DNA of 64,000 nucleotides from the NCBI GenBank assembly GCA_039720395.1, contig CM077827.1, positions 10,640,099 through 10,704,098 on the forward strand. Direction: 5' to 3'. Positions 5,001 through 63,025 of the stretch are shown here, piece after piece (the first letter of the stretch is position 1; each line of letters starts with the position of its first letter). Source of the stretch: Liquidambar formosana. Taxonomy: Eukaryota > Streptophyta > Magnoliopsida > Saxifragales > Altingiaceae. The position numbers and the translations under genes were made by a program. Under the pieces are notes generated by a model, which saw only the letters and a list, made by a program, of their open reading frames with translations, made no database searches and was not told the DNA's origin.

Positions 5001-8000
5001 AATAGGGGTTAATGTGCAATTAAGTGTAATTACACATAACCCTATTAGGGTTTCTTCCCCATGGCCAGCCCCCTTTAGTGGGCTGCCTATATAAGTCACA
5101 CTTATGTGTGACATGGCATAACAGGCTTGCACAATAAACCCTAGCCGTCCAGCCCCTTGGAGGCTCTCTTCTCTCTCTCTCTCTTCTCCACCTCTAGCAA
5201 CAACAAGGAAGAAGAAAGAAAGGACTTGAAGCTCTAGCTAGGTGTGGATACCGTTGGAGGCAGCACACTTGGGCTGCTCATTCACCACTGTCCGCAATCA
5301 AAGCTTGGAGCAAAAAGGAGAAGACAAAAATTCTGTAAGTGTTCTAACCCTCTTTGTAGTTAGGGTTTGATTTTGTGTTATGCATAGTTAGATTCATGGG
5401 ATTGGGAATCGTAGGAAAAATTTTTTATATTCCGCACTTCTATTTTTCCCTCTTATTCGATTACCAACAACAAGGACATTGCCGATCTGAGCACTCCGGC
5501 ATGTTCAAAGTCATGGCCAGCAGGTTCGAAACCCATCGCCCATGATGGTCAAGACGGAAGCAGAGAAAGGGATAGAGAGAAGCTGTATATATATATAGAC
5601 TCTACAACACAGTGGGTTTACCACTGTATTCACAAATCTTGATTGGTATTTCTCCAAGTGGGTTCAATATGGAGCTGTTATCATCAAATCGAGTGCTGAT
5701 CTGACATCAATATGAGTAGATCTGCTATTTTTCCCAAACATATGACTGGTTTACACCCTGATTCTCTCCACTTCTGCTCTGTTCTCTCTCTGTTTCAGTG
5801 TTGGGAATTGGGGATCTTGGTTCTGAAGGGTTCAAACAACCAAACGGGTTTTCATTTTTTTCCCTCTGAAAACTGTTCTTGTTTTATGTTGCCAAACAAG
5901 TTTTCAGCATGAAGAATTCCTAGAAACAGTAATCTATTCTCATTTTTTAAAACAGGTTAAACAAAATTCACAAATCCCCAGCAGAACACACCCTAAATGA
6001 CCATAATTTCAATTACCAAGTCTTGTATTGAGTCATACTTGCAACGAGAGAATCTACAACACATAATTCATGGTAAGTACAACACTACTCAAGGAAGACA
6101 TTGACGCACCTATTGTGGCAAATTAATGTTGGAAAGGTCATCCTTGTTCTCAAGACAACAGAGGAAGTTGTTGGACAATTTCAAGGAAGCACACTCACCA
6201 AGCAGCAAGGAAAGCCTTAGCAGCCATGTCCTCAACAAATTACATAACCCCAATTCCTAAAAATGAGCTCAGATAGATCTTTCAAGGCAATATGCCAACT
6301 GGCCAATACAAATAGTCAATTACAATTGGATCTTGTATCCATGAGAAGCAACTGTTGATGAGAAGGATCATAATTTGTGGCTTGAGGATGAACAATTGGT
6401 TTATCACAGCAATTTAAGATTGAAAATGAGAGCTCATTATCTACTATGATGCCCATTATGCTAGTGTCTTGTGATCATCCCATGTGCTGATCAACTACTG
6501 AGTAAATGCTTTGCCTTGAGTCAGAAGCATTCTCTTGGTGTAGCAACAAACAATATCATCGATCAAATATAGTGGAGGTAGATAGATGGAGAATGGTGGC
6601 AGCCAAGAGAGGACATGATCAACACAGTCATCACAGGATCTACAACAGCCACTAGACTAATAAATTATTATGATTCAAAACCAAACAGCCGTGTGACTAC
6701 CACAAGCATTGACCTTGGAAAAAGGCGGTGGGGTTTGGACTGTTAGTAATACACCTTACAGCCAATAATAGAGATGATGCTTTAGGGATAAAGAACAATC
6801 ATAGGATTTCATTTATTGTATGTCACATTTATTATTATTCAATAATGGCTTATTCTATCATGTTTATTTCATTCTTTATATTTACATGATATGTGTATGG
6901 AGTTAGAGTTGAGAATATGAAATTACAATGAGTTGTGATTTTGAGACTATATATATCTCTGTACTAAACTCCTAAATCATTCCTAATTGAAGGTTCACTG
7001 TGATGGACAATAATGAACCATAAGACTAGCACATGTTAGGTTGGCTTTATAAGAGGATAGTTAGTCCTAAGTTATTTGTGTGTAGAAACTATAACCAACA
7101 TGTGGGTGCCTATTACATGAATAGGTACATTGAATGTGACCATAGAATATAAGATCAACTGAATGGAGTTTTAACTGTCTGTCAATCAGTTTCTCATAGT
7201 TGTCAGTGGTACAAGTAATCCTTAGACTTGAGACACCATAATTGTCTTGCACATATAGCGTTAGAAGTTTGATAACACTAAGTGTAGATTCGTATAGAGT
7301 TTACAAAGGTATTCATTGGCTCTATTGATATATGTATGAAGGCATGTGAGTGATCAATAAGGAATCCACACTCTCAGTAAAAAGGAGATAATGTTTCACA
7401 TAGCATTCATAATATAACTCATAAAGTCCATGGCCATGGTAGGATGATTATGGAAAGGAGTCTTCATAGTGCATTAATGAGTTGATATATATGAATGGGT
7501 ATAAAGTATTAAACTAAGGACTTGACAGACTATTAGTTTAATCAGAGAAATTGTATAGATGGAATGATGTAATTGTAACCTTAAGTTGTAACTGAAGGGT
7601 TTTTTGTTCGATATTTATTCACCTCATCGAGGACCACACCATGAGCCATTGCTAGATGCTACTCATGGTTAGTAAAAGCCCTAATTGATATAAATGAGTT
7701 ATAATCAATTAGGAAATTAGAAGGTGTTTCAATTAGACCCTTAATGGAAAGTGTTCCATTGTGCACACTTTGTGCTGTTCCTACTAGTCGATGATGTGAA
7801 CCCAATGGGTCACACATTGATTATGCAAAGAAGGATTTTAAAACTTTGAGAGAAAGGGCAAGATTGAATGAGAAAAGTTCTAGAGGCCTATACTTGTATT
7901 TGATATAAGTTAGAGGGGTTTAATTGCAATTATAGAAAGTTGCAAGTCGAAACCCTAGTTAGACTTCCCCTCTATGCCCGACCCTCCATAGTGGCTATAT

Positions 8001-35117: not shown

Positions 35118-35750
35118 TCTACACAAGACTTATATACTTATTAATTTTTAGTTATCTTTTTAGCCAAACTCCTCATCGTTCTAAGCAAATGTACAAAAAA
35201 AAAAAAAAAAGAAAAAAGAAAAAGGAAAAAAAAAGGAAGACTATTATTTAATGTGGGATTGATTTTTTAACAATATTTTATGAAAATTTAAATAAAACAA
35301 TATCAAAATAGTGATTAATAGTACTATATTAAATGAAATAATCCCGAATTTTTTTATTAGGAATTCATATTATACCTATAATGCTCGTATCCATATTTTT
35401 TCTATTTCCATCTTTTTATAGTATTTTTATCACCAAAAAAAAAAAAAAAACCATATTTTACTAACTATGGCTCGATATGTCCAAACCCACTTATTCATCT
35501 TTATAAGCATTGCCCTCAAGATAATACACTCATCAAAATAGAATACCTACCTTAATGATAATAGAGAGAAGTAAGCTTCTCGAGAAACGTCTTGATATCT
35601 AAACATTAAAAAAAAAAAAAAAAAAGAGAGAAAGAGAGAGAGAGAAAATCAGTCCATTGGTTCCAACTTGCATGAAGCCATGTGTCACTCCATTTTAGAC
35701 TTCTATCATTTATACCATGATCCCACTTGATTTCCAGAAATTATGAAGAG
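35118..35750. other. AT-rich spacer with A-homopolymers
   Basis: Only poly(A)/purine runs (about 35196-35240, 35435-35450, 35606-35646) stand out; no gene or element end was recognised. It ends at the target duplication of the Gypsy-type element. Confidence 0.4.
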
Positions 35751-35755
35751 CCAAG

Positions 35756-37548
35756 TCTAGACACCCCATTTTGTACCGGTTGTCATCTTAAGTCCCGTGG
35801 TCCTGATGATGAGGTTTATTATTCGTCTTGACAAAATGCGAAGTGATCCCAAACGAGCCAATGAAGTCACAGCAGAAATTCTAAGTTTGTAGCCAATTTT
35901 CATTCAGCCCTGCTGTGTACGCACCTGTAGTGGGTGCGGACACATTCCTGCGTATACAACCATTTGGGATGCATACGCACCCTCCCTTTTTATGGAAACT
36001 CCAGATTTAGTTGTTCTTTCTCCTTAAGACTTCTAATTGAAAAGAAAAATCCTATTTTGAATGCAATTGCAGTTAGCAACTCGGGAAGGACTCCCAAAAC
36101 CCTAAGGATCTTTATATATACACCATTATAATTATGAAAGAAGGACTAGAACTCTAATCCAAGGAGCCACCATACACTTCATAAAAAACCCTAAACTGAG
36201 GATTCATGCTGTGATTTTGGAGGCTTGCAAGGAGGAACTAAGCGAATTTGAAGACGCGTAAACCTGAGGGTAACTTTCCTAACAATTTCTATTCAGTTTC
36301 ATAGGTTATGGTTATGCATAATTGAAGTAATATTGGTATAATCACATGCATGTTGGTTGATGTGCATTATTTATTTATTATGCATGATTTAGAAGAGTAG
36401 GGTTGTTAGAGAGTGAAATTCGTAATAATTCAGCAGCAGTTTTCTAAAATTAGCGATCGTATTTTAATCCAAACGTTTGACTCTGTAGTTGGAATTGGGC
36501 GAAATTGGTCTTGTTAGAAAGATAATTCAATTCTCTACAACTGTGTATTTCACGAGATTTGTCCAATTCCAACGTTTTCATACTCAAAAACGCGATTGAA
36601 GTTTCTGCTGTTGCAAAGTGATGAAAATCACTTTTCTTTATCTTTTTATCTTTTCTTTATTTTATCTCATTATGCATGATTATGGGTGAAATATGATGAT
36701 AGAATGCATTCTTAGGATGAATAAGTTTTGTAATCATTGTATATCATGTCATAATAGTGGAGTAGGTTAAATCTGAATAGGACTGACTAACTACCCGTTA
36801 GTTATTATCAATTAATGATATTAATATTGATATGTTAGGCAAATATTCATTCCCCTGATTTCGTAGTAATGCTATTTGTTCGTAGTATTCTAGATATTTA
36901 GTATTAGGGTTAGTTTGCATTGTTTTCTATTTTCTGGATTTTGGGATATGCCTACGGGTTGCGTACGCACCATCCATGGTTGCATACGTACGCACCCCCA
37001 TTAAGGCAGACAGTTTTGTTCTCTCTAGGGTTTTTTGCATGATAGTATTTAGGGATTTTTATTTCTTAATTATTATTGTTTAGAATGCATGTGAGTTACT
37101 GCAGCGGGACTAATAGAAGTGCAGGTATCTGAATGAAAGGTGCGTACGCAACTAGCATAGATGCGTCGCACCATGCTAATTGCACGTAGAATACTTGTCC
37201 CCTATTTTTCAGTTTTATTTATGTAATTTTTTACTGTTCACTCTGCATATCTCATTCATTTTCGTATGATATAAATTATTGCATGTTTTAGGGTTGATTT
37301 TGATTGAATGACAATTTAATTATAGCCAATAGTTATGTGTGGGGGCCGGTTTCAACGGGGCATTGTTGGTGCCTAACACCTTCCCGATGATGTACCCTAG
37401 CTCCGAACCTGAATCTCTGGTTATGACGAGCTAGACCCTGCTAGGGTTCACTCATTCCCAATATTGGGTGGCGACTCCTCTCCGTGTTAGTCCTCTGAGG
37501 CTAATGCGTATTCTCGAGCTATGTGGTATTTAGGGCGTGGTGCTCACA
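35756..37548 (+). repeat. Gypsy-type 5' LTR (1793 bp)
   Basis: It starts TCTAGACACCCC (second base changed from the expected TG) and ends GTGCTCACA. A TATA box, TTTATATATACAC, lies at about 36110-36122. Near its 3' end GGTGGCGACTCC (about 37468-37479) resembles the first ten bases of the element's own PBS. Confidence 0.85.
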
Positions 37549-38772
37549 GTGGCAACTCCACTGGGGATAAAGAGCTAGACTCCGTAGTAACTATTGGCCT
37601 TAATTAATTTGGAAATTTGATTAACAGAAACTAAATTGCACACACGCGCACAAGGACCTTATTTACCCTCGATGATAGTCCAATGAGAGACCCGGGCCCC
37701 ACTCGCGCCTATGGTCTACTCAAGTTGGCATCATCAACTCAGAGCCTGTGCCACTAACCTGTGATAAACTAGTGAGTACATTAACGGGCCACTCATTGAG
37801 TGCGCTAGTTTGGGTAACCCTTGAAGGAGAAGTAACCCTAATTGACCGACCACACTAAATTACCCCTGATGCCTTTGCATAGCTCTGTTTGAATGTGTGT
37901 CACTTTGCATGTCATGCTGCATTTGCATATTAGGCCCATAATGTTTGGACTTAGGGGCAAGGCCCATCATTGTCTATTCTCTTTTTCAAGTCTAGGCCCA
38001 ATTGAGAGGTGAGGTGTGTGATTTTGTAACTGGGTCCAAGCCAAAAAGAAAAATCCAAAAATAAATAAAAAATAAATAAAAAAAAATCAAAAAGAAAATA
38101 TGGGCTTGGATCAAAATGAGAGTGGAAGAATGTGTGAATATTGTAATGGGCTTAGATGTGAAAAACAAATAGACTTTGGTTGGTTGAACCCAGTGTGGTA
38201 CCCTTGGCTTCATGTGTCCTTAATGTGATTCTATGTTGGGCTTTCTCTTAGGGTTTTAGGTCCATTACCATTTCTCTTTTTTTTCTAGGGGCATCTCATT
38301 CATTAGAGTCTTTCAGTTTAGGGGTATGAGGGTTAGTTGAGTCTTCTTTCTCTATGTGTGGTCTTGTTGTTGGTCCATTTTGGGTGCATTAGGCCCATTC
38401 ATTCTAAGGTTTACATCTTTTTTTTTAGTGTTGCATGTTGTCACCATGTCTCTTGTCTAGGTTTTTAGTTAGGAGTCTATGTCCACTTCTTTTTTTTTCC
38501 TTTTAGGTCTTTGAGTCTTGGTCTAAGTGTGTCTAGGTTCCTTTTTTGGTTCAATTGTCTAGTCTTTGATGGTCTTTATTCTAGAGGCATGTTTGGATAA
38601 AAATTGATGTGAAATGATTATTGATAATCATGGTAAATGACTTTTTATAAGGATAAACATATTCTTTGTAGGGATAACCAATCATTGCTTCTAAAGAGAA
38701 TCCTGCACAACCAACTTGGATTCGTAATTCATCTGGGAGCTTAGAAAAAGTAGGAGTTACCCAAAATTCAAA

Positions 38773-39666
38773 ATGCCTAAGATGGATGTGTTTGATGGGA
38801 CTGGTAATCCTCACAATAATTTGAAGCAGTACATTCTGGCGATGAAACCTATAGGGCTTTCTGAAGAGCAGATTGTGCATTATTTCCCAAGAACCCTTAA
38901 TGGTGATGCTATGAATTGGTACCTTTCCTTAGACATTGCAAAGACCCGAGATTAGAAGGAGCTGGCTATGGAGTTTGTACACCATTACAACTACAATGTC
39001 CAACTCGATGTAACTCTGCGAGATTTGGAGACTACAAAGCAGAAGAGTAATGAGACATCCTCTGAGTTCTTAACAAGGTGGAGGGCTAAAGCTGTTAAAA
39101 TGCCCAATCGTCCAACTGAGTAGGATCAGGTGCGCATGATTGTGAAGAACTTTCTACCGGCTTTTGGAAGACCATTAATGCCCATCCCATTGAGGACCTT
39201 TGAGGACTTGTACAATGCTGGTATACAAGTAGAGGATGGCATGGATAGTAGGTTAATTGATAAGAATGATGGGAAGGCATATATGGATTTGGCAGCTCGA
39301 GTGCAAGTAATGGCAACAAAACTAATGAGGTTAATGCGGTTAATCCTCGTAGTGGACCTAGGAAATTCTCTTCACTTGGTGTGTTTCTATCTACAGCCCT
39401 TCGAAATTTAGTGAGAAGAGGAAAGATGAAGCCGTTGGATCCTACTCCTATCAACAAATCGGCACCGAACTACAATGAGAATGAGTATTGTGATTTTCAC
39501 AGAGTAATGGTCATCATACTGATAGGTGCGGTCGTCTTCGCCACACCATTCAGGACATGATTGATTCAGGGAAACTTCCTAAGCCAGGGGCACCAAATAC
39601 AGTGGCAAATCTGCTCCCAGACTACCACGCCACGCCACCTCCAAATACAAATGGGACGCAGTGGAT
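38773..39666 (+). pseudogene. Gypsy-type gag relic
   Basis: The reading MPKMDVFDGTGNPHNNLKQY, then LNGDAMNWYLSLD and TLRDLETTKQKSNETSSEFL, is the core of the Retrotrans_gag domain that packages element RNA. Two in-phase TAG stops (38953-38955 and 39121-39123) break an otherwise preserved frame up to about 39411. After a shift the sequence CDFHRVMGHHTDRCGRLRHT gives a zinc-knuckle-like C-H-H-C end, followed by QDMIDSGKLPKPG. Confidence 0.8.
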
Positions 39667-40104
39667 TTAAAAGTAGAGGATTGTTTGGTTTCTTTTAGTT
39701 TCCATGGTTTTAAGGCATTATTTGAATAATTGGTTATTTTGGTTATTTATGGTTTGGAACAATTATTTTGGGGTTAATTATTTTGGTATGATTGTTTCTT
39801 TTGGTCATTAATGAATGGTTTGCATTAATTTATTACTTGCTTTCTCAAGGTTTTGATATAGTTTGCTTTTCTAGTACATGAGTTAATATACTTGCCCTTT
39901 TAATGCTTGAATTGCGAACAATGGAAATCAAAATGAAGAGAGGCCATCATTTCTGCTATCCTTCAAAAGAAAAGAAAAAATCCCTTATTATCCCCTTTGA
40001 GCCTAAATAATTTCTTTTTTGATACCCTTGTCAAGGATTACCCCTTACACTAGGGGCAGATTTTAAATAGATGTTTGTTTGAAAGAAGTGGTGGTGTATA
40101 AACC

Positions 40105-40225
40105 ATTGGAAAAAAAAAAAAAAAAAAAAAGAGATGAAAAGAAAAGGAAATAAAAAAGAAAGAAAGAAAAAAAAAAAAAAAAGAAAGAAAGAAGAAGGAA
40201 AGAAGAAAAAGAAAGAAAAGATGCA
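40105..40225 (+). repeat. Purine (GA/A) tract in the Gypsy-type interior
   Basis: About 120 nt made almost only of A and G. It gives a Phe-rich frame on the other strand, which is not a gene. It separates the gag relic from the hairpin array region. Confidence 0.7.
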
Positions 40226-40429
40226 AAACTGAAATAGTAAATGAAGTGCCAAGTTGGAAAGTGAAATGAGCAGTGTCAAAATAATCCTTGATAGATAGGA
40301 ACCCATTGAAGTTAAATTTGAGCCTTTAATATCCTTTCTTTCATGAGCCTAGAACCTTGAGCCTACATTACAGTCCAAATAAAAGTCCTCTCTAATTGAG
40401 TAAAGTTGTTCAAATATATATGAATGAAT

Positions 40430-40472
40430 GAACTACGTAAGGCTTGATCCCTTTTTGGGTACGTAGGCAACC
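40430..40472 (+). promoter_or_regulatory. Conserved GAACTACGT...GTACGTAGGCAACC motif, copy 1
   Basis: The blocks GAACTACGTAAGGCTTGATCC and GGGTACGTAGGCAACC recur at 41998-42037 in the same element and, inverted, at 59463-59517 and 63422-63463 in other LTR sequences. The function is unknown. Confidence 0.6.
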
Positions 40473-41091
40473 TTTAGAGGTACAGCCACATCATTATTCA
40501 TGTAAGGGGCATGTGCAAAAGACTCATGTGTTAGTAAGTTGAACCATTGATAATTCAAACAGAAAGATTAGCACTTTATTAATGTTTACCATGTTATGAA
40601 GAAGGTTTCAAGCAGTTTAATGCCACTGAGAAGATATGATGGTGAAAATAATCTTTTGGAGATGCTGATGGAGTCGTTGATGGGTGAATATTACACTGGT
40701 TTGAATTTGATGAAGAATAAGAAGAAGAAGGCTCGCTAGGTTGAAAACCCGAAAGGGCGGTCCTAAGCAAAAGTTAGGGTATGAGGAAAATGAAAATATG
40801 AAAAATAATAAAAAATAATAAAAAATAAAATGAAGAAAATGATGAAGGAAGAATTTCAAGCAAGGGGCAAGGTGAACCTTATGAGGGATGTGTCCCAAAA
40901 TAAAAAGAACATTTCAATGATTATCCGTAGTTGGTCTTATGAATCAATTTCCTCCTTAGTGTGTCTTAAGAGTCTTCTCATCTAAGGGCTTTTTTGTTTT
41001 ATAAGTCATTCTTTTGTTGTCCATCCCTTAGACTAGGGTCTGTTGTTGAGGGGTTTGCCTTCATATATCTAAGAGTAACTTCATATTTGTG

Positions 41092-41926
41092 TGCTTCCCC
41101 CAAGGAAAGGGATGAAGTTAGTTTGCTTGTGCATTCTCAGGGAAAGGAATGGCATTTCTTTTTTATCCACAGAGACAAGGATAAAATTTCTATATTTGTT
41201 TATGATCCACAGGGACAAGGATTATGCTTTTATCCACAGGGATAAGGATAAAATTTCTATGTTTGTTTGCGATCCACAGGGACAGGGATCATGTTTTTAT
41301 CCACAGGGACAAGGATAAAATTTTTATGCTTGTTTATGATCCACAGGGACAGGGATCGTGTTTTTATCCACAAGAATAGGGATAAAATTTTTATGTTTGT
41401 TTATGATCCACAGGGACAGGGATCATGCTTTCTATGTTTGTTTATGACCCACAGGAAAAGGGGTCTTCTCTATTTGCTTGTGACCCATAAGAAAAGGGGT
41501 CTTCTCTTGTTTGCTTGTGACCCACGGGAAAAGGGGTCTTCTCTATATTTATTTGTGACCCACAGGAAAAGGGGTCTTCTTTATGTTTGCTTGTGATCCA
41601 CAGGGAAATGGATCTTCTATTTTTGTGACTCAAAGGAAAAGGGGTCTTCTTTATGTTTGCTTGTGATCCACAGGGAAATGGATCTTCTATTTTTGTGACT
41701 CAAAGGAAAAGCGGTCTTCTATGTTTGCGATCCACAGGGAAAGGGATCTTCTATATTTGTGATCCACAAGAAAAGGGATCTTCTATGTTTACTTGTAATT
41801 CACAGGGAAAGGGATTATACCTTTATCCACAGGGAAATGGATAAAGTTTCTATCATTAGTGTTTTCTTATTCATTCCCTGGGAAAGGAATGAAGCTTCTT
41901 GTTTATTCCCCAGGAAAGGAATAAAA
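41092..41926 (+). repeat. Array of about 24 short covarying inverted repeats (mini-hairpins)
   Basis: Units repeat every 30-45 bases. Each has left arm, loop close to ACAGGGACAA or ACAGGAAAAG, and a matching right arm. Arms change together: TTTTATCC/GGATAAAA (41161, 41228, 41295, 41362), ATGATCC/GGATCAT (41403), GACCC/GGGTC (41446 and three more), CTTTATCC/GGATAAAG (41821), TTCATTCC/GGAATGAA (41870), TTTATTCC/GGAATAAA (41902). A few pairs need G-U, such as GACTC/GGGTC. T-rich spacers (TTCTATGTTTGCTTGT-like) lie between. It sits between gag and the polypurine tract. Tandem repeats are known in the 3' untranslated part of Tat-type elements; the preserved pairing is what stands out. Confidence 0.85.
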
Positions 41927-41997
41927 TTTCCATATTAATCTTTTTTAGTTGGTAGTTTCGAGAAATTACCTACTGAGTGCCCTCATTATTTTTCATG

Positions 41998-42037
41998 AAC
42001 TACGTTAGGTTTGATCTTTGAGGAGTATGTAGGTAGT
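41998..42037 (+). promoter_or_regulatory. Conserved GAACTACGT...GTAGG motif, copy 2
   Basis: Diverged copy of the motif at 40430 (GAACTACGTTAGGTTTGATC followed by TATGTAGGTAGTC), directly after the hairpin array and about 130 bp before the 3' LTR. Confidence 0.55.
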
Positions 42038-42169
42038 CAACTGAGTCTGGCATGACCTTATTGCATGCGCGTGTGTGTGGACTTTAAGATGCCAACCGGT
42101 AAATGGTTCGTCTCTTCAAGCTTTTGACTTTCGTATTGCAATGCAAAACTTAGTCAAAAGAGGGGTAAC

Positions 42170-43944
42170 TGTAGACACCCCATTTTGTATTGGTTGTCAT
42201 CTTAAGTCTTGTGGTCCTGATGATGAGGTTTATTATTCGTCTTGACAAAATGCGAAGTGATCCCAAATGAGCCAATGAAGTCACAGCAGAAATTCTAAGT
42301 TTGTAGCCAATTTTCATTTAGCCCTACTGCGTACGCATCTGTAGTGGGTACGGACGCATTCCTGCGTACGCAACCACTAGGGATGCGTACGCACCCTCCC
42401 TTTTTATGGAAACTCCAGATTTAGTAGTTCTTTCTCCCTAAGACTTCTAATTGAAAAGAATAATCCTATTTTGAATGCAATTGTAGTTAGCAACTCGGGA
42501 ATGACTCCCAAACCCTAAGGATCTCTATATATACACCATTATAATTCTGAAAGAAGGACCAAAACTCTAATCCAAGGAGCCACCATAAACTTCACAAAAA
42601 ACCCTAAACTGAGGATTCATGTTGTGATTTTGGAGGCTTGCAAGGAGGAACTAAGCGGATTTGAAAACGCGTAAACCTGAGGATAACTTTCCTAACAATT
42701 TCTATTCAGTTTCATAGGTTATGGTTATGCATAATTGAAGTAATATTGGTATAATCACATGCATGTTGGTTGATGTGCATTATTTATTTATTAATGCATG
42801 ATTTAGAAAAGTAGGGTTGTTAAAGAATGAAATTTGTAATAATTCAGCAGCAGTTTTCTAAAATCAACGATCGTATTTTAATCCTAACTTTTGACTCCGT
42901 AGTCGGAATTGGATGAAATTGGTCTTGTTAGAAAGATAATTCAATTCTCTACAACTGTGTATTTCACAAGATTTGTCCAATTCCAACGTTTTCATACTCG
43001 AAAAACGCGATTGAAGTTTCTACTTTTGCAAAGTGACGAAAATCACTTTTCTGTATCTTTTTCTCTTTTCTTTATTTTATCTCATTATGCAGTGATTATG
43101 GGTGAAATATGATGATAGAATGCATTCTTAGGATGAATAAGTTTTGTAATCATTGTATATCATGTCATAATAGTAGAGTAGGTTAAATCTGAATAGGACT
43201 GACTAACTGCCTGTTAGTTATTATCAATTAATGATATTAATATTGATATGTTAGACAAATATTCATTCCCCTGATTTCGTAGTAATGCTATTTGTTCGTA
43301 GTATTCTAGATATTTAGTTTTAGGGTTAGTTTGCATTGTTTTCTGTTTTCTGAATTTTGGGATATGCCTATGGGTTGCGTACGCACCCCTATTAAGGCAG
43401 ACAGTTTTGTTCTCTCTAGGGTTTTTTGCATGATAGTATTTAGGGATTTTTATTTCTTAATTATTATTGTTTAGAATGCATGTGAGTTACTATAACGGGA
43501 CTAACAGAAGTGTAGGTATCTGAATGAAAGGTGCGTACGCAACTGGCATAGATGCGTACAGCACCATGCTAATTGCAGGTAGAATACTTGTCCCCTATTT
43601 TTCAATTTTGTTTATGCAATTTTTGACTGTTCACTCTGCATATCTCATTCATTTTCGTATGATATAAATTATTGCATGTTTTAGGGTTGATTTTGATTGA
43701 ATGACAATTTAATTATAGCCAATAGTTATGTGTGGGGGCCGGTTTCGACTGGGCATTGTCAGGGTGCCTAACACCTTCCCGATGATGTACCCTAGCTCCA
43801 AACCCGAATCACTAGTTATGACGAGCTAGACCCTGCTAGGGTTCACTCGTTCCCGATATTGGGTGGCGACTCCTCTCCGTGTTAGTCCTCTGAGGCTAAT
43901 GCGTATTCTCGAGTTATTTAGGTATTTAGGGCGTGGTGCTCACA
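42170..43944 (+). repeat. Gypsy-type 3' LTR (1775 bp)
   Basis: It starts TGTAGACACCCC and ends GTGCTCACA, with TATA box CTATATATAC at about 42524-42533. It is highly similar to the 5' LTR throughout. A short deletion near 43385 removes part of a repeated GTACGCAC segment. Confidence 0.85.
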
Positions 43945-43949
43945 CCAAG

Positions 43950-44380
43950 CATTCCAATTACCTTTTAACCAGTTGTATCCATTGTGCTTAATTTTTGTTT
44001 TGCTTTTTTTCCTTCTCATCAATCTCTCTGTCTAAATCCGAATAACTAAGGTAAATTACATTGTTGTTTTTGTTTATGCTTTCATTGTTTTCCTGTACTA
44101 TTTGCTTTCATTTGTTTTGTTTTATTTCCATACGTTTCCAAGAATTCTTTTTATGTAAATTTCCTTAAATATAATCTCTGTCAATTCTTGAATTTTTTTT
44201 TTTTTTTTGAAAGAAAGACTTTTGCTTTCGTTTTCTAGTTCATTTTGTTCTTTGATTTCTTAATTTGTGTTTTTTGATTGTGGGATTCAGTCTTCAAGGC
44301 TTCTGAAATATAAATTGTACTAGAAATGGGTTCTAGGGAAGAAAGAGTTCACTTTCTTGATGCTGTAGTTTGTCTGTGAA
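43950..44380. other. Spacer between the Gypsy-type element and the TOPLESS-like relic
   Basis: T-rich sequence with a homopolymer T run (about 44193-44208); no gene or element end was recognised. Confidence 0.3.
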
Positions 44381-59517: not shown

Positions 59518-61761
59518 ATTGAGAAGGGGTTACTCCCTTTACAATGAACTATAACCCTAAGTTTCCATTAAAAGAAAAGAAGAGTTTTAAAAAGAAGAGT
59601 TTCCAAAAAAGGAATTTGAGAAAAGATAGAATTTGAAAAGAGATAGAAGTCTTATCCAAAAGAAGTTTGAGAAAAGTAGAATTCTAAAAGAGATAGAACT
59701 CTAATTAAAACAGAATTTTAAGAGAGTTGGAAACTTACGACTTCTAATCCAAAGTAAAGACAATAACCCAAGGGGGGAGAAGAGAACAACTCACACAATA
59801 CTCACCATGAACCACTTACCATATGCAAATTATCCCGAAACATCGAGAAAACACCAATTAATCACCCTATGTATTTTATAGGGCAATTATTAAGCTCAAA
59901 CCAACCATATTCATGCTCAAATAATCACTAGGAGGCCTAATTCAAATCTGGACAGAATACTAAACATGCATATAATGACCTAAAACTCATGCAAATAACA
60001 AAAATCAAAAGAAAAACACAATCCTAATATGCTCCTATATGCTCCTATATGTTCTAAACACCCTAACATGCACAAAACTATCAAAAACATGCTAAATAGG
60101 CATTACCATGATGAAAATATCATATGACAATCCTAAACATGAAAAGAAAATCTAACATGATGCCTTAGGTAAGTATTTTATGTAAGAATGTGAAATAATC
60201 ATCCTTACGGCGAGCTTTCTTAAGTAAAACTATTCGGAGATAATTTTACGTAGAAATCACTCCGTATGAATGGTTTTTTCACATATCCTACGTAAAATAT
60301 ATACCTCAGAATGCAAAGAAACTCACAACGCACTTAAACACACTCCAGAAAGCACTCATGCACAACCTCACCCTCTAAGGACGATAATTATCCTTGAAAA
60401 GGATAATCATCCATACACCTATGAAGATGAGGCTTACACAGCAAGTGTCCTATACAAAAGATGCTTAAAATCATGCATATAATTGAACCATGAAGAGAAA
60501 AAGGCCTAAACACATCAACTGATTTTTTTAATGCAAAAGTACCTCTATCCTAAAAAATTTTGGAATTCTAACTCGGTTTGGACTCCGAACTTCAAACGGA
60601 CACAAATTCTTCATTTTAACTCCGATTTGAGTGATTCAAAAGCCAAAATTTCAAGGATTCAATGTAGAATAAGCCTAGAATATTCTTGAACCAAGAATCC
60701 CTAACCACAGTCAGGTGGATGGGTTTTCATGAGGCGATTACCCGAAAAAAGGTCAATTAAGCATAGGGTAATGTGGTGAACCAATCCCAAACCTATCAAT
60801 AAAATAAATTGGCACTTTAATTAGACTCATTTCATCATTCTAACGTCAATGGGACACTCCGGAACAAATTTGGAAGTCAATTGGAAGGTATACGAAGTAA
60901 AAGACGAAATTGCCCTTCAAGTTGCAAAAGTTCTAATTAGCTATCCAAACCTATCTGAAATTGAACCAAATTTGACACACATATCTAAAATGACCCTAGA
61001 AACTAAATGCAAGTGATGGGAGTCACAAAAGAGACAAAAATATGCATGCACTGATGACCTATTCTCCTAAGGCTTAAAAGGGCAAAATTGTCCTTTAAGG
61101 CTTAGGGACTCCTAAATGCTTCTAAACCTGACCAAATGCTATCATGAACTTATGGGGATGAAAATGGGGTGTCTACAGTAGGGTGTTAGATTATATGGGA
61201 AAAAAATATTTATTGATAATTGATTTAAATGCTAGGAATGATGGAGAAGGAAATCATGTTGTGGCATGGCCGCCCATTAAATCATGGAGGAAGAAGCTTC
61301 TCCAACAGCATCAAGGTGGTCAAATAGAAAATATTCAGATGGTAGCTAAGAATGAAGAGGTAGATCAAACGCCATGTATGTGAAGGTGAAGATGGAAGGG
61401 GTGGCAATAGGAAGGAAGATTGATCTAATGCTTTATCACTCATATCAAATGCTTACAAACACCTTGATCAGCATGTTCATTAAATATGAGTGACTGTACT
61501 GCATATTCTCTATCAAATCCCCAAACAAGGCTTAATAGGTTCAGTTTCGTTCTGTTTTGGGTTTGTCCATGTGTAGACCAGAAAGGTAATAAAGATGGCA
61601 CACATTATACACTCACTTATCAAGATAAAGAAGGAGATTTGTTGCTTGCAGGAGATGTTCCATGGCAGTACGTATTTTCTCTCCTTTTTATCACAAGCTT
61701 GATTGGTAGATCAATTTACACTCATTGTAAGATTTATGTGACATCATTTAAACCATTCATT

Positions 61762-62189: not shown

Positions 62190-63025
62190 ATATGGACATT
62201 GCATAGGTTATAGATGAGAATGTGAAATCACCACATTGTGTTTTGGTGATATTTGATTCTACGCTAAATATTATAATAATGCAATTTTAAGTAATGCCAA
62301 GTGTCCAAAAATATGTGCTGTAATTTACTCTCTAATAGAAATTGCAGTCCAATTTCAAATAGTATTGTATTACACTTATTACTACCCAAGAGACATGGTA
62401 TAAAATGAGCAAATTTTGGGGCATTTTTGTCTGTTAATTAGACTTTCCTTATATAATGTTCAAAATGCATTCTAAAGACTATATTTTGGGGTATTTTCAT
62501 CATTAAATTTGACTTTATGATTAACCATTCCATGCATTACCATCTTCAATAAGGGCAATCCTGGCATTTTTTAAAGTTTTTTGCATGACATCAGCAATTT
62601 CTGTTAGTTAACTAACAGTCAATGGATGGAGGGGAGGTCTATGTGATTTTCATCAAACCTCAGGAGAGGTGAGTGTCATTTTTGAAACCTCAGGAGAGGT
62701 CTGTGTCATTTTTCAAAACCTCAAGAGATGTCAATGTAATTTTCCCTTATTTTTATTTTTTATTTTGGGGTTTCCTTCTTACATATGCGCATTTGCTAAA
62801 TTAGGAAGTATATAAGAAATCTGATTTTTTTTTTTAGTTCTTATAATTATTTATTGTGATCTTAATTTATATAAGCAAATTTTAGTAATCATATATGGAA
62901 GCAAATTTTATGTGTATTAGGAAAAAAAAATTGTTGGGTATAAATTTTGTTGTGCATGTGAAAATACATAGAGGGTCTATTTTTGGAATTCGCTTAAGGC
63001 CCTAAAAAAATCAGGACCAACTCTA
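61762..63025. mobile_element. hAT-type non-autonomous element in the IAA29 pseudogene
   Basis: The same insertion as 22318-22995: TAGGGTCAGCC at the left, ACCAACTCTA at the right, flanks CATTCATT (61754-61761) and a decayed CATTATTT (63026-63033). It is longer because of an extra insert of about 570 bp after a T run (about 62190-62755). Confidence 0.75.
62190..62755. mobile_element. Insert of unknown class within the hAT-type element
   Basis: It is absent from the corresponding place in 22318-22995. The last 90 bp hold three units of a ~29-bp repeat (AAACCTCAGGAGAGGTCTGTG-like; about 62650-62742). Clear inverted ends or a duplication were not seen. Confidence 0.5.

Follow-up and report, generated by a model that had tools for sequence, protein, structure and literature searches.

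Tandem mini-hairpins with a conserved loop ahead of the 3′ LTR of a plant gypsy-like retrotransposon: a candidate sense-RNA element

The window, a stretch of 64,000 nucleotides that is part of a 718-Mb plant assembly, contains an LTR element of 8.2 kb (35756-43944) in which a tandem array of hairpins sits between gag and the 3′ LTR. The hairpins recur across subfamilies with divergent LTRs, their loop is conserved and, in four terminal hairpins (T1-T4), changes keep pairing on the sense strand more often than expected. We tentatively interpret the array as a selected cis element acting as sense RNA, most likely a multivalent signal for Gag binding and packaging, the Gag step being one that we infer.

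In the mechanism that we propose, the genomic RNA of a presumably gag-only, non-autonomous Ty3/gypsy-like LTR retrotransposon would contain the array in its 3′ untranslated part, as an RNA element acting in cis. Each unit presents a purine-rich loop that is conserved (ACAGGGAMAR) and carried by a short stem, whose sequence would be free to vary as long as pairing in the sense RNA, G-U included, holds. The array RNA would be transcribed, and its many weak hairpins may jointly offer the element's own Gag a multivalent landing site and so favour the packaging of the element RNA into particles with a polymerase supplied by another element. The tandem form probably arises and varies through strand transfer in reverse transcription.

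The host element and its hairpin array

The features of the element, all on the forward strand, are the following:

35756-37548, +: 5′ LTR, TCTAGACACC...TGCTCACA (1799 columns aligned with the 3′ LTR by self-BLAST, 93.7% identical)
37550-37567, +: candidate primer-binding site TGGCAACTCCACTGGGGA, placed directly 3′ of the 5′ LTR, by position only
38728-39557, +: broken gag region, in the pieces 38728-38952, 39124-39408 and 39270-39557
41093-41926, +: array of 24 mini-hairpin units (sequence reading, hairpin enumeration and shuffles)
41947-41974, +: longer single hairpin AGTTGGTAGTTTCGAGAAATTACCTACT downstream of the array, 28 nt, imperfect
42156-42165, +: polypurine tract AAAAGAGGGG, immediately 5′ of the 3′ LTR
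42170-43944, +: 3′ LTR, TGTAGACACC...TGCTCACA (self-BLAST)

The element is an LTR retrotransposon, with an LTR pair, a target-site duplication of 5 bp (CCAAG, at 35751-35755 on the left and 43945-43949 on the right), a purine tract and a primer-binding site assigned by position alone. The first piece of its gag matches Ty3_capsid with an E-value of 0.077, below the cut-off, the two other pieces gave no domain match, and the region shares 83-88% DNA identity with five loci in which the frame is uninterrupted over 457 aa. The earlier description of the element as Gypsy-type is borne out in that it is an LTR element and its gag is gypsy-like. Stop-to-stop frames between the LTRs reach at most 124 aa, the length of the longest antisense frame; pol was not found in the element, and gag lies about 2.6 kb from the 3′ LTR. 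A-rich tracts are present at 35195-35234 and at 40110-40219, the latter between gag and the array.

Each unit of the array consists of an arm, a 10-nt loop of the ACAGGGAMAR type and a complementary arm. Enumeration returned 19 non-overlapping hairpins with at least 5 Watson-Crick pairs and a loop of exactly 10 nt, where 300 dinucleotide shuffles gave 1.44 on average. When arms of at least 6 and loops of 6-13 were required, 10 hairpins were counted, whereas 300 shuffles averaged 1.75 and never exceeded 6. The first-pass annotation, made from the sequence alone, had reported a tandem array of about 24 mini-hairpins with a conserved loop, and this description is confirmed (24 units, 19 hairpins against 1.4 in shuffles); the arm pairs that it quoted are also present, including GACTC/GGGTC and AATTC/GGATT, which use G-U pairs. 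In the common register the first unit (41091-41118) is unpaired, the GAYCC units form only 5 pairs, and single units are weak, with a mean of -6.2 kcal/mol. The loop carries A at column 7 in 69/69 units seen at least twice, and G at column 5 and A at column 9 in 68/69; inverted loops were absent, against 789 sense loop matches. Two layouts occur: in type A, two hairpins alternate every 27 and 40 bp, and in type B a single hairpin with a 5-bp stem recurs mostly every 32-38 bp. The window array shows the 27/40-bp alternation on its left, up to about 41430, and mostly the 32-38-bp spacing on its right.

The longer hairpin downstream of the array is shared by 38 of 40 loci; of the two others, one has no match and one has a match with 6 mismatches that was left uncounted. 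One of its inner pairs is A-T in most copies, G-C in some and G-T or A-C in a few, the G-C or A-T state differing between subfamilies, and this hairpin supports the view of a structured 3′ region. A scan for clusters of at least four hairpins with equal loops, covering 204 kb made up of the window and fourteen 10-kb stretches chosen for holding the array, returned this array and three other clusters, at 7754-7976 of the window, in L048 (loop of 3) and in L054 (loop of 12). Elsewhere in the window, a 30-bp tandem repeat at 62630-62743, whose units contain ACCTC-AGGA-GAGGT inverted repeats, lies near a minus-strand LTR-like start (TGTAGACACCCC) at 61177 and is possibly a second, unrelated mini-hairpin array.

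Related copies and their gag frame

The array was looked for in related elements, as the annotation had proposed, and it is a recurrent feature: the DNA search gave 64 matches grouped into 40 places, the window copy (L001) included, so that the array recurs in 39 further loci, and it also appears in 10 of the 13 copies that were selected on gag alone. All 40 places were analysed, and 821 of their 943 candidate units were kept. Of 9084 candidates from a gag search, 93 were scored. Seven of ten divergent copies (84-90% aa identity), chosen by gag alone, carry the array within the 1.9 kb covered, and so do, within 1.2 kb covered, 3/3 further copies (91-94%). The unit number varies from 13 to 38 called units across 13 loci. 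The internal sequence of array-bearing stretches is about 78-92% shared, and in many of them the LTR match to the window consists only of pieces of about 60-280 bp. L048, L050-L053, L055, L060 and L061 contain the same internal region, and their LTRs match the window LTR in short pieces that lie mostly near the 3′ end of the latter; the LTRs of these subfamilies seem to be exchanged as modules. In the L034/L053 element, self-BLAST also revealed tandem and palindromic repeats of about 80 bp in the LTRs.

The uninterrupted 457-aa gag frame lies upstream of the array in 5 of 14 related 10-kb stretches (L048, L053, L055, L060 and L061), and a pol-sized frame was found beside it in 0/5. It is the sole frame of at least 180 aa in four of the five; in L053 one other such frame is located outside the LTRs, which are 98.2% identical, and in the part scanned between these LTRs no frame of at least 180 aa besides gag was found. 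A domain scan of the frame from one of the five loci matched PF03732 Retrotrans_gag (E 4.9e-8), and the protein is similar to Arc capsid structures; these matches do not fix its assignment to the Tat/Retand lineage of Ty3/gypsy. In its C-terminal part, CDFHQSHGHHTDKC reads directly as a zinc-knuckle-like CX2HX4HX4C motif. Against the protein database, the 457-aa frame retrieved 15 proteins, two of them from Quercus suber at 58-59% identity, and the window gag piece had no matches; in viral contigs, no related loci were detected by the gag piece, the gag alignment or the unit pattern. At G000:C4:9458619-9473033, with L053, L033 and L034 nearby, three identical 457-aa gag frames follow each other at intervals of about 6.5 kb, all oriented alike, with array copies also near them, an arrangement that resembles a head-to-tail tandem of elements.

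Pairing within and between arrays

Within the window array, the alignment of 24 units (23 distinct, 184 stem cells) shows that 84.2% of the stem cells pair, with a covariation score of 0.475 against 0.213 ± 0.029 in shuffles (0/500) and 0.146-0.226 with slid partners. Cells altered on both sides amount to 27 against 10.1 in shuffles (0/500), and neither the number of pairs altered on their two sides (5 against 4.8; 321/500) nor that of further pair types (13 against 12.3; 227/500) is in excess. Tree-aware nulls are exceeded by the aggregate covariation of the window array (0/300 twice) and by that of recurrent units (0/150 and 1/150); within one array, covariation is real in aggregate. The check with R-scape or RNAalifold that had been suggested succeeds in part: the aggregate signal holds (0/300) and RNAalifold recovers the same five inner pairs, three of which show compensation, but no single pair of the window array is significant in an R-scape-like test, the best E-value per pair being 0.49-0.94. 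Selection on structure, the conclusion of the argument that minisatellite drift would break pairing, is supported, but not by that argument: arms 10 nt apart are copied together, so that the compensations within one array come down to a few independent class-level events. The class-level differences include transversional pairs at pair 5. The association between T-A and C-G at pair 3 of GAYCC units (p 5e-21) was discounted, linkage being a sufficient explanation, and so was the G-U over A-C excess of the type-A TATGATCC class, which its copies have by common descent.

Constraint on interior units was tested in three ways, and variants inside the array look neutral. Private variants keep pairing in 90 cases and disrupt it in 84; those common to at least three loci divide into 11 keeping and 5 disrupting (p 0.30), those common to two loci into 5 and 11, and four further comparisons gave p-values of 0.41, 0.64, 0.14 and 0.79. 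One contrast (pair-keeping variants 12 shared and 0 private, disrupting ones 16 and 13; p 0.0075) was dropped, since a count of all possible transitions did not uphold it.

The 3′ end of type-B arrays is orthologous in 18 elements, and a test on its four hairpins avoids paralogy:

41794-41819, +: T1 (TGTAATTC / ACAGGGAAAG / GGATTATA); in 18 elements 11 changes keep and 0 disrupt pairing
41821-41846, +: T2 (CTTTATCC / ACAGGGAAAT / GGATAAAG); in 18 elements 5 keep and 5 disrupt
41870-41893, +: T3 (TTCATTC / CCTGGGAAAG / GAATGAA); in 18 elements 8 keep and 3 disrupt
41902-41925, +: T4 (TTTATTC / CCCAGGAAAG / GAATAAA); in 18 elements 2 keep and 1 disrupts

Fifty loci were examined, of which 18 were used; 25 type-A loci are without T1-T3 (judged by eye), and L039, L045, L066, L067, L070 and L071 (no anchor) as well as L044 (extra unit) were left out. 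The tree was built from unpaired columns only, the null was matched to tree and spectrum, and stem columns were defined on the window copy. From paired states, 35 changes were counted, of which 26 keep and 9 disrupt pairing, whereas the null keep fraction is 0.44 ± 0.08 and 1/400 simulations is as extreme; in a repeat run the null was 45%, with 0/300. The excess persists when the window copy is left out (1/300) and when only the inner six pairs are counted (1/300). Unpaired tip cells are 12/539 against 29.6 ± 6.1 expected (1/400; repeat run 1/300). Most of the signal is carried by T1; T3, whose pair 2 is T-A, T-G or C-G depending on the element, is borderline (9/150), and T2 (49/150) and T4 (43/150) are not significant alone. 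Pairing is thus kept beyond a phylogeny-aware null in T1-T4, as in a conserved RNA secondary structure. The claim of selection on structure is supported for these hairpins (26/35 against 44-45%) and not for the interior units; similarly, independent drift of the arms, which the annotation had named as contrary evidence, matches the interior units, in which no pairing preference is significant, and not the orthologous terminal hairpins.

Strand and alternative explanations

When A-C is counted instead of G-U, the rule proper to antisense pairing, the keep fraction is unremarkable (276/300), and changes from Watson-Crick pairs lead to G-U in 13 cases and to A-C in 4 (two-sided p 0.049); unpaired sites show no strand asymmetry (28 C>T changes at 23 C sites, 31 G>A changes at 29 G sites). 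Under the antisense rule, unpaired tip cells again fall below their null (56/539 against 78.5; 2/300), and they do so also when only Watson-Crick pairs are counted (60 against 94.3; 0/300). This count favours pairing and is silent on the strand, so the strand claim relies on the keep fraction and on the 13:4 ratio. Predicted folding leans the other way: the whole sense array folds no better than shuffles (z -0.34, 20 shuffles), whereas the antisense array does (z -3.78, 20 shuffles), and the in-context hairpin probability of the window copy is 0.28 in sense against 0.53 in antisense, with sense lower in 13/13 loci. Exchange of 3′ arms among units lowers the predicted probability on both strands in all 13 loci tested (of 40). 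These folding results, together with the tip cells, would fit hairpins that act in an antisense transcript, as a source of small RNAs, or in minus-strand cDNA during reverse transcription; given that the changes show no preference for antisense pairing and that G-U exceeds A-C, we consider this very improbable. Production of small RNAs, as the annotation had suggested, finds no support: with Rfam 15 over 35700-44000 nothing exceeded the gathering threshold, and of two sub-threshold matches one is a weak minus-strand match to a microRNA family (22.9 against a gathering score of 82). The hairpins are, moreover, far too short for usual dicing. The preference for sense pairing and the tolerated G-U point to RNA, and argue against cruciform DNA and against a simple correction by template switching, which would leave perfect arms.

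Short template switches between arms, in DNA replication or reverse transcription, could nevertheless keep the hairpins perfect without any function by copying one arm from the other, a mutational bookkeeping that we regard as unlikely. Template switching is able to create and maintain hairpins, according to the available text of PMC8794818, and two double changes from one Watson-Crick pair to another on single branches, above the null (2/300), as well as the transversional pairs at pair 5, are in its favour; but 13 changes stop at G-U where perfect arms are predicted, the 13 to 4 ratio does not suit a strand-neutral process, and no loop inversion accompanies the 789 sense loops, inverted spacers being one outcome of template switching in the available text of PMC8604942, though not an outcome of every form of it. 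A passive minisatellite, in which a hairpin unit is amplified by unequal exchange or strand transfer and its arms are co-copied under no selection on structure, appears to us similarly unlikely: the turnover of arrays between two layouts, the neutral look of interior variants and the lack of significance per pair in a single array agree with it, whereas the pairing kept in T1-T4 beyond a spectrum-matched null and the aggregate covariation above tree-aware nulls do not. That the hairpins serve reverse transcription itself, through enzyme pausing and strand transfer, as a self-expanding feature, would account for the different unit numbers of the copies but leaves the conserved loop sequence unexplained, and seems to us improbable. 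A descent of the units from the primer-binding site was dropped because about 10% of 1142 window stretches reach its local alignment scores.

The preferred reading, a selected sense-RNA element bound by Gag, draws on two further features: a conserved loop on interchangeable stems is what selection by a loop-reading protein is expected to produce, and Gag, with its zinc-knuckle-like C-terminal motif, is the only long frame found in these elements. More speculatively, and with rather low confidence, in gag-only plant retrotransposons the roughly 24 like-loop hairpins, with their interchangeable stems, might constitute an RNA code that Gag reads by avidity and thereby captures element RNA, with hairpin copy number as the evolving quantity; if true, this would explain the tandem arrays that precede the 3′ LTR in plant elements. 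Evidence of selection on RNA structure for one such array would recast what is presumed to be a by-product as a cis signal that can be tested, and would open a way to study how the RNA of gag-only, non-autonomous elements enters particles.

Comparison with known systems

Tat/Ogre and Retand elements are known to carry tandem repeats ahead of the 3′ LTR (available text of PMC7004042, PMC11963269 and PMC6317226). The array at 41093-41926, with the 3′ LTR starting at 42170, is a 3′ tandem repeat of the Tat/Ogre type and, as in the hypervariable 3′UTR described in the available text of PMC7004042, it lies between the last ORF and the 3′ LTR and varies in unit and number; what sets it apart from the repeats described there is that its units form hairpins whose arms covary and whose loop is conserved. 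Neither "hairpin" nor "secondary structure" occurs in the main text of PMC7004042, "hairpin" is absent from that of PMC6317226, and "hairpin", "stem-loop" and "secondary structure" have 0 occurrences in PMC11963269. About half of Retand elements likewise carry tandem arrays before the 3′ LTR, and some are non-autonomous (PMC11963269, available text), but their region between pol and the 3′ LTR measures 2.9-6.6 kb and contains antisense ORFs, with TRP28 in 97% of clusters (same text). In the window copy no pol was found, antisense frames reach at most 124 aa and gag is about 2.6 kb from the 3′ LTR, so that, judged by frame length, the antisense TRP28 ORF and the region typical of Retand are not present.

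TR-GAG elements (PMC8704663, available text) offer another likeness, having two LTRs, a single gag ORF and proteins provided by another element; they differ in that the active TR-GAG of Arabidopsis resembles ATCOPIA63 members and in that a hairpin array is not mentioned in that text. The L053 element has the TR-GAG organization, and in the window copy gag is broken.

Retroviral packaging stem-loops are bound by nucleocapsid and present purine-rich, G-containing loops on short stems, in viruses whose Gag has a zinc knuckle. The array may be analogous to them in its purine-rich G-containing loops, its short stems and the zinc-knuckle-like motif of Gag; unlike them, it lies 3′ of gag and counts about 24 tandem repeats, and its binding is putative.

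The annotation had also held that an array of compensated hairpins was undescribed, and this agrees with our search of titles and abstract openings in the open-licence literature, in which covarying hairpin arrays in plant LTR elements were not found. Since the position is known from Tat/Ogre and Retand and covarying hairpins are undescribed in the literature searched, the array is a variation on known 3′ tandem repeats: its hairpin form is new, and its placement is that of the 3′ tandem repeat of plant Tat/Retand elements.
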